From contig NZ_CP020612.1 in NCBI RefSeq assembly GCF_002105555.1, positions 1,542,001-1,606,000 of the forward strand: 64,000 bases of DNA, written 5' to 3'. The notes under the pieces are model-generated. The model did no database searches and was not told where the DNA came from. It worked only from the letters and a program-made list of their open reading frames with translations. Positions 49,872-50,599 of the stretch are shown here, in pieces. Each line of letters opens with the position of its first letter. The first letter of the stretch is position 1. Made by a program: the position numbers and the translations under genes. Source of the stretch: Paracoccus contaminans. GTDB taxonomy: Bacteria > Pseudomonadota > Alphaproteobacteria > Rhodobacterales > Rhodobacteraceae.

Positions 49872-49969
49872 CACAAACGACTCCTGTGTGCACTTGTATA
49901 TAACGCGCTCGTTTGCACCGACTTAATGAGACGCGAAATCTTACCGCAGAGAAGAGAAGGGCTTGAGCC

Positions 49970-50599
49970 TTGGTCAACTTAGCCGCCTATTGGTCTCGTC
50001 TCACTGAAAATGTTCACCCGGACGACGTCGAGATTTTCGCCGTCTTCGCGAGGCACAGCTTTAATCTTGATCATCCTCCACCCGCCTTTGTCGGAGACGT
50101 CTTAAACGCGCCTGTTATTATCCTTGATAACAACGGTGGCTATGATGAAATAATGACTCCAAAAGAATTCGCGTCACCCGATGCCGACCGAATGTTTCGC
50201 GCTTCACTAGCCGACCCGCGTCCGATCCAGTACTGCGCACCATATCTTTCAGAATATTACCGATCATCAAACTACTCTGCCTACCTCCGTTCAGGAGACG
50301 CTGCACTCGTGAATGGAGTGGCGTACCGATCACGTGATGGGCGCCACTCTTCCATCAAAGCGTTGACCGGCCTTTTGCGATCAGCTCAGGAACATCGCCG
50401 TTGGCTAACCGAAACTATCTTGCCGCAGGTGCAACGAGGTGAACGTTTCGTTATCGTCCACCGTTGGGCACGATGGGGCTCAGCGACGGACGTCTTTCGA
50501 AATGAAGCGAACGCGATATTCAGCCGTTCGCCGGTCAGCAAAAACCTCAGTGCAGCCGAAATACTGGCGTTGGATAACTTCCTAAGACGTCGGGTGTAG
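49970..50599 (+). CDS. unrecognised gene of foreign base composition (possible UDG-fold protein)
   Basis: A 209-residue frame, clearly richer in A/T than all neighbours. The only in-frame start is the TTG at 49970 (a TGA lies two codons upstream), with GAGAAGG ahead of it. The product is soluble: FVGDVLNAPVIILDNNGGYDE (split about 41-61), YLSEYYRSSNYSAYLRSGD, AALVNGVAYRSRDG, then WLTETILPQVQRGERFVIVH and RWARWG. The order of a hydrophobic strand ending in an acidic/Asn loop, a central LVNxVxYRS and a late strand ending in His-Arg is reminiscent of uracil-DNA glycosylase-like folds. This is a weak, unverified resemblance. It lies alone between the tuf terminator and the rpsJ promoter. Confidence 0.7.
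   Translation: MVNLAAYWSRLTENVHPDDVEIFAVFARHSFNLDHPPPAFVGDVLNAPVIILDNNGGYDEIMTPKEFASPDADRMFRASLADPRPIQYCAPYLSEYYRSSNYSAYLRSGDAALVNGVAYRSRDGRHSSIKALTGLLRSAQEHRRWLTETILPQVQRGERFVIVHRWARWGSATDVFRNEANAIFSRSPVSKNLSAAEILALDNFLRRRV

Follow-up and report, generated by a model that had tools for sequence, protein, structure and literature searches.

The window, a stretch of 64,000 nucleotides from Paracoccus contaminans, carries a small gene between tuf and rpsJ. Below, the interval between these two genes is called the slot and a gene within it the cargo. The locus contains the following features:

48625..49803, + strand: tuf (EF-Tu), left flank of the slot (ORF; tblastn probe)
49841..49871, + strand: intrinsic terminator of tuf, left boundary of the cargo (fold calculation)
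49872..49969, + strand: AT-richer 5' part of the cargo, with the ribosome-binding-like AGAAGGG at 49955-49961 (sequence and composition)
49970..50599, + strand: cargo gene, 209-aa protein with a predicted uracil-DNA glycosylase (UDG)-superfamily fold (ORF list, homologue alignment, model and composition)
50609..50637, + strand: rpsJ promoter TTGACA-17-CATAAG, right boundary of the cargo (by eye)
50795..51103, + strand: rpsJ (S10), right flank of the slot (ORF)

The initial annotation had described 49872 to 50599 as lower in GC than its surroundings and different in codon usage, and both points were borne out. Of all 600-bp segments of the 64 kb, taken in 50-bp steps, the eight lowest in GC start at 49701-50051, and the minimum of 0.518 is in the segment starting at 49851. 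The GC3 of the cargo ORF is 0.52, compared with a mean of 0.855 (sd 0.046, minimum 0.707) for the other 66 called genes in the window, and its codon adaptation to the S10-operon genes is 0.21, compared with a mean of 0.61 and a minimum of 0.34 for the others. The junctions are as tight as had been claimed. Behind tuf, a 12-bp stem (49841-49852/49857-49868) that includes G-U and A-U pairs, with a 4-nt loop, runs into the T run at 49866-49871, and the fold calculation gave -22.9 kcal/mol with a z of -4.64. An automatic scan reported 0 terminators and the tuf hairpin was absent from its list, perhaps because the stem consumes part of the T run; the fold calculation is better evidence for this terminator than the simple scan. 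On the other side, by eye, the -35 box TTGACA of rpsJ (50609-50614) lies 9 nt past the cargo stop codon and the -10-like hexamer CATAAG 17 nt beyond that box; this promoter was absent from the list of a simple promoter scan.

Between these junctions lies a single 209-codon frame, and the TTG start that had been proposed for it holds up. TTG is the earliest possible start, with an in-frame TGA two codons upstream. AGAAGGG is found 8 nt upstream of it, no ATG, GTG or second TTG follows the start within codons 1-20, and the N-terminus read from TTG aligns with the N-termini of relatives. No other ORF of at least 100 aa is present in the interval. The rpsJ leader (50655-50795, + strand) has a GC-rich hairpin followed by T's, plus a second stretch. 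By eye, both recur in similar form in many Paracoccus intervals, and the region resembles a leader or attenuator of the S10 operon. An Rfam scan of the window, this leader included, gave no match at gathering scores, and a tRNA scan of the window was empty.

The window protein had 0 matches in Pfam, PHROGs and PADLOC and one chance match (E 0.18) in NCBIfam. When 32 family members were searched against Pfam, there was no consistent family among the hits, which were 4 chance families with no UDG among them. The gene had been called an orphan, and this is refuted, since it belongs to a sizeable unnamed family: 94 proteins were found at E up to 1e-3, namely the window's own and 93 relatives that are mostly about 50% identical, and the alignment search gave 281 matches at E up to 1. 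The loci of 21 relatives are from Rhodobacteraceae, other alphaproteobacteria, betaproteobacteria, Opitutaceae and Actinobacteria. The actinobacterial relatives at L016, L017, L019 and L020 are extended at the C-terminus by ~110-130 residues, and a segment close to the end of this extension is conserved. The gene was present in one of the 61 genomes of the first search, which is the window's own, and, with the own genome included, in three of the 125 genomes of the genus and three of the 394 genomes of the family. These counts and the foreign composition agree with the recent acquisition that had been suggested. In G467, which seems to be the L014 strain, the Paracoccus copy of the gene is split into two parts separated by about 2.5 kb, and the ORFs between them are transposase-like by eye.

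The tuf-rpsJ interval itself is variable in Paracoccus. An rpsJ match was found in 54 of the 61 genomes searched, own included. At 37 of these 54 loci tuf lay upstream within the fetched stretch and the interval was measured, and the other 17 were without it (contig ends or rearrangement). The 37 intervals range from 184 to 2991 bp and 24 of them are at least 700 bp; a stricter filter gave 33 gaps with a median of 965. Eight tuf-less loci were refetched to 12-20 kb, and tuf was at 9.6 and 12.2 kb in two, inverted in one and absent from five. The control gaps in Paracoccus were 9-16 bp for rpsJ-rplC (33 loci, some genomes possibly counted twice), 45-120 bp for fusA-tuf (24 loci) and 9-18 bp for rpsG-fusA (24 loci). 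These gaps span at most 75 bases, but they are inside operons and therefore naturally shorter, which makes the comparison lenient. Other genera of the family are the better control. There, 40 loci were picked by place on the contig from 63 non-Paracoccus matches, seven of them without an upstream tuf, and the 33 intervals measured were at most 349 bp in 28 cases and at least 988 bp in five. Long intervals are thus commoner in Paracoccus (Fisher p 2.9e-5 at 700 bp, for genomes that share ancestry). The initial annotation had regarded the gene as an insertion tolerated in a conserved locus. A foreign gene does stand there, but it is not merely one tolerated insertion, since the interval is variable across Paracoccus.

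The right edge of the slot recurs at many loci. TTGAC is found 177-195 bp before rpsJ in 31 of the 37 Paracoccus intervals; an earlier one was taken in two and there was none in four. In 14 of the 37, an ORF of at least 100 aa in the same direction as rpsJ ends within 40 nt before TTGAC or inside it. At L069, L081, L084, L085 and L086 the stop codon TGA is part of TTGAC, the L085 ORF being probably spurious, and the stop begins 4 nt before TTGAC at L074 and 12 nt before it at L100 and in the window. For L069, L081, L084 and L086, coupled expression of cargo and rpsJ or a constraint on the insertion point is possible. The cargo of L070 and L095, among others, ends further from TTGAC, and five cargo ORFs (L077, L078, L090, L099, L104) run the opposite way. 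Upstream of the slot (45069-49803), the window's tuf is preceded by a gene that we take to be topoisomerase-IV-A-like and by a minus-strand ORF; 24 Paracoccus loci have fusA before tuf. Five of the other 53 loci keep parts of the window's arrangement, one of them (G005) with tuf inverted, and tuf copies may mediate rearrangement.

By Pfam, the cargo in other Paracoccus species includes a PemK toxin, HNH, DUF2971, SieB, an acyltransferase, DUF488, a diacylglycerol kinase with a metallophosphoesterase, PycTM, an alpha/beta hydrolase, DUF3800 and GT61, while several are without assignment. Some cargo is common to a few genomes (the hydrolase in L095, L098 and L108, the kinase in L091 and L108). 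Pfam annotation of Paracoccus cargo ORFs, those of the 9.6 and 12.2 kb intervals apart, revealed no integrase, and five cargo ORFs from other genera had no Pfam match above the cut-off. Two cargos that had been judged by eye as GIY-YIG-like (L076) and HEPN-like (L101) matched 0 Pfam families, and these names were dropped. The L101 interval (1993 bp) contains a piece of an IS4/5-family transposase (DUF4096) among other ORFs. In the L111 interval (376 bp), a 35-codon frame corresponds by eye to both ends of a PDC-S44-like gene such as the one in L081, which points to loss of cargo by internal deletion; this frame was missing from the tblastn matches listed.

PADLOC was run on 19 cargo ORFs from other genomes, which are part of all cargo. 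Six matched (PDC-S31, PDC-S44 at E 3e-87, PycTM, DUF3800, PDC-M45B and a weak phosphoesterase) and 13 were without a match. Strong matches (E 1e-20) were found for three of the 19 slot ORFs and at most two of 100 control genes (one-sided p 0.028). The control genes were drawn from 225 ORFs called in twelve 20-kb Paracoccus stretches, and at this threshold they gave one family with two members among the 25 of 54 matched PADLOC families listed. They are ordinary and not accessory genes, so the enrichment is over ordinary genes. For this reason, and because the threshold was chosen afterwards, the defence enrichment in the slot is only suggestive. Several cargos (acyltransferase, alpha/beta hydrolase, GT61, diacylglycerol kinase) are not defence-like.

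The relatives of the window protein are found in several kinds of surroundings. Two are on Paracoccus plasmids, and the one on a P. marcusii plasmid adjoins two DEAD/DEAH helicases, an N-6 methylase, an HNH endonuclease, a metallophosphoesterase and an ADP-ribosylglycohydrolase. At L012 (4000-14435), 12 repeats that we presume to be attC-like are separated by small genes that include a relative of the window protein, and we took this array for an integron cassette array. Six viral contigs carry the gene. On one of them, the annotated viral contig L027, it is antisense to its neighbours, between the tail terminator and an unassigned gene adjoining the major head gene, an arrangement typical of genes added to phage genomes. 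The remaining five contigs have neighbour clusters in common with L027. No match at E 1e-5 was found in 50,697 phage records. These loci are in line with the phage or defence contexts that had been proposed for proteins of this kind. Many other relatives, by eye and among the loci listed, are alone among ordinary genes, and most neighbourhoods have no clear defence island as judged by eye. Clustering of the neighbourhoods of 29 loci gave no constant partner gene. Besides the family itself, the clusters in more than 5 of the 29 loci were phage genes only (from the six viral contigs and L015), a cluster that includes annotated recombinases was in 5, and the remaining clusters were in at most 4. 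This partner result is weak, because the gene caller used for it was poor in GC-rich DNA (it placed wrong-strand ORFs over tuf and over the gene at 45069-47348); a GC-frame gene caller replaced it in later analyses.

The predicted window protein has UDG topology and matches UDG structures over its full length, which agrees with the UDG-like fold that had been suggested. Among the 50 VIA-align rows listed for two confident models there are only UDG-superfamily entries, among them the family 4 UDGs 4ZBY, 1UI0 and 1VK2 (~150 residues, rmsd 3.7-4.3); TDG aligned over fewer residues with a lower Z. The two models have 10 of 32 alignment members in common and are therefore not fully independent. Foldseek E-values were weak, at best 0.075 for the first model and 0.27 for the second. 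The first Foldseek list was mixed, with HemD, another fold, at rank 5, and the second was headed by TDG entries. Among the BFVD viral models, UDG-like entries were on top with E at best 0.12. Sequence profile searches of the PDB gave weak unrelated matches only. Against 32 PF03167 proteins of the same class (33 were extracted, and L158 was too short to keep), hhalign gave a best probability of 11% over 30 columns outside the active site. The window protein thus has neither a PF03167 sequence match nor a profile link to UDG families, and with the profile-profile comparison failed, homology to UDGs is argued from the fold. The resemblance of the model to UDGs is at the fold level only. We are highly confident that the cargo is a foreign gene with a UDG-type fold. 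The host genome has five PF03167 matches in all, one of them in the window itself (33033-33482, + strand, E 4e-36).

The reference motifs of UDGs are motif A, with a catalytic Asp, Asn or Glu after strand 1, and motif C. Three putative counterparts were placed by strand order:

50126..50146, + strand: putative motif A loop D53-N-N55-G-G-Y-D59, after strand 49-53
50312..50332, + strand: end of the putative base-recognition strand, N115-GVAYRS
50522..50539, + strand: putative motif C, S185-R-S-P-V-S190

Conservation was read from an alignment of 134 members (137 proteins, 3 dropped by length). N55, which is where motif A is expected by strand order and not by residue-level superposition, is present in 132 of 134 members. 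N115, at the end of strand 111-115, is present in 133, as are Y119 and R120 each. The last strand leads into S185-x-x-P-x-S, with Ser at position 185 in 93 of the 134 members, Asp in 34 and Thr in 5. Nine residues, including H16, D19, Y119 and R120, are invariant in the A2 alignment and all nine are kept in the window protein. The modelled order resembles that of motif A, the base-reading Asn and motif C of UDGs. We take position 185 as the place of the His in UNG motif C. The catalytic His of family 1 and family 4 motif C is absent at this putative position, placed by strand order, and appears to be replaced. The strict conservation favours an enzyme over a dead fold.

The surroundings of the relatives and the slot location suggest protection against viruses. 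A solitary antiphage DNA glycosylase that works like Brig is the best single explanation for the window protein, and we hold it with about half of our confidence. Taken separately, glycosylase activity seems rather probable, and the antiphage role is evenly poised. The composition, patchy distribution, slot variability and varied cargo behind this explanation were observed, and the fold comes from confident models; we infer the glycosylase activity, the antiphage role, the base specificity and the exchange mechanism. An unusual base in the DNA of an invading phage would be flipped into the protein's pocket and its glycosidic bond hydrolysed, and the abasic sites left behind would block phage replication, the mechanism published for Brig1 and Brig3. 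The gene sits in a slot, from the tuf terminator to the rpsJ promoter, that in many Paracoccus species is occupied by some other small accessory gene. The slot could accept inserts because it separates two transcription units, and its cargo might turn over without an integrase, by homologous recombination through the conserved flanks.

Other explanations were weighed against the defence glycosylase. The UDG fold and conserved putative pocket, and the many relatives that stand alone near housekeeping genes (by eye, among the loci listed), would also fit an accessory repair enzyme that excises a damaged or deaminated base of the host's own DNA and that spread by transfer without being a defence gene. 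Yet the genome already has its five PF03167 UDG matches, the occurrence is very patchy, and copies are found in viral contigs, plasmids and an integron-like array; we consider a repair function unlikely. The protein might also act on nucleosides or nucleotides, or sense them, through a UDG-like fold, for example by cleaving free modified nucleotides or signalling molecules, and might still be defensive. Such a role would be consistent with the missing motif C His, the missing profile link to DNA glycosylases, and the A2-invariant H16, D19, Y119 and R120, which have no assigned use; it seems a good deal less plausible given that the VIA-align rows listed are all DNA glycosylases.

A phage function, either superinfection exclusion or the handling of the phage's own base chemistry with the bacterial copies as leftovers, is suggested by the six viral contigs and the antisense position within the head-tail module of L027. 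The phage records without a match and the window copy that stands alone in its interval speak against it, and we think it improbable. Lastly, the foreign codon usage, the broken Paracoccus relative L014 and the short cargo remnant in the same slot of another species (L111) might indicate a decaying passenger without function in this host. This is very improbable, as the window gene keeps an intact 209-codon frame with a ribosome-binding-like site and all nine A2-invariant residues. If the defence glycosylase is the correct reading, an unnamed protein family would join the few DNA glycosylases known as immune enzymes, with a target base guessed from one residue. The short slot before the S10 operon, where candidates of several known defence families are already present, would be a new place for finding defence genes, readily inspected in any Paracoccus genome. 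Among the titles and abstracts listed for tuf/rpsJ hotspots, defence islands of Paracoccus, defence hotspots in general and UDG-type defence, none described the slot or the family.

Among known enzymes, the family 4 UDGs (4ZBY, 1UI0, 1VK2) have the same predicted core fold as the window protein, but there is no profile similarity and their motif C His appears replaced. Family 4 has four cysteines and the window protein a single one, so it should have no 4Fe-4S cluster. TDG, Mug and SMUG1 (families 2 and 3) have Asn in motif A, and TDG and Mug have a non-His residue in motif C. The window family seems to be like them in both respects, but no sequence similarity was detectable in Pfam.

Brig1, of about 29 kDa, is an antiphage alpha-glucosyl-5hmC DNA glycosylase (PMC11078745) and Brig3 a 5hmC DNA glycosylase (preprint PMC13160076); both belong to the UDG superfamily and give protection against phages through the excision of modified cytosines. 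The closest solved relative of Brig1 is the S. tokodaii enzyme that was also matched here (PMC11078745). Brig1 is compared with the window protein by published description and not by sequence. It needs E147 at the base-reading position (PMC11078745; the preprint PMC13160076 writes Q147), where the window family has Asn by inferred alignment. Brig3 is like the window family a UDG-superfamily enzyme, and its N50-P51-S52 near the scissile bond (PMC13160076) probably corresponds to N55-G56-G57. On its own it gives protection against phages with free 5hmC; it depends on D127 in the pocket and inserts N225 into the DNA (PMC13160076). The putative D127 equivalent in the window family is Asn. Brig3 has an operon partner, BapA (PMC13160076), whereas the window gene has none. 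The putative equivalent of the acidic E147/D127 is thus N115, in 133 of 134 members; if this equivalence holds, the acidic residue of Brig is missing and the substrate would be different. Brig1 and one homologue adjoin an ADP-ribosyl glycohydrolase gene (PMC11078745). Within the window family, the Brig-type location in a defence island is seen for the one plasmid relative beside helicases, N6-methylase, HNH and ADP-ribosylglycohydrolase; most other loci have no island by eye, and the window's slot has defence-like cargo elsewhere. The Nocardioides species of the Brig1 homologues are not named among the 120 of 281 matches listed, most of which are without a name. Filing the window protein as a Brig-family member is not justified, since the key residue seems to differ and common descent would be claimed without a sequence comparison.

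The putative base-reading residue also bears on the target. Because it is Asn, and not the Glu or Asp of the cytosine-reading Brig1 and Brig3, and because Asn is common at this position in related glycosylases, such as N82 of the S. tokodaii uracil enzyme (PMC11078745), we guess a thymine- or uracil-type base. Brig2 is cited as acting on phages with modified thymine (PMC13160076), and dU-DNA phages of roseobacters exist, such as DSS3_VP1 (PMC12697855). A bolder proposal, which we offer tentatively and think doubtful, is that tuf-rpsJ is an integrase-free exchange slot for small solitary genes, often for immunity, and that the window gene represents an independent lineage of defence glycosylases attacking thymine- or uracil-derived phage bases, for example in the dU-DNA of this roseophage. 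The slot is like core-gene-flanked defence hotspots such as those described for P. aeruginosa (PMC10250203) in its conserved flanking pair and variable cargo. Unlike them, it holds mostly one or two small genes, with no integrase in the Pfam-annotated cargo, and in its variable form it is frequent in Paracoccus and less so in other genera.
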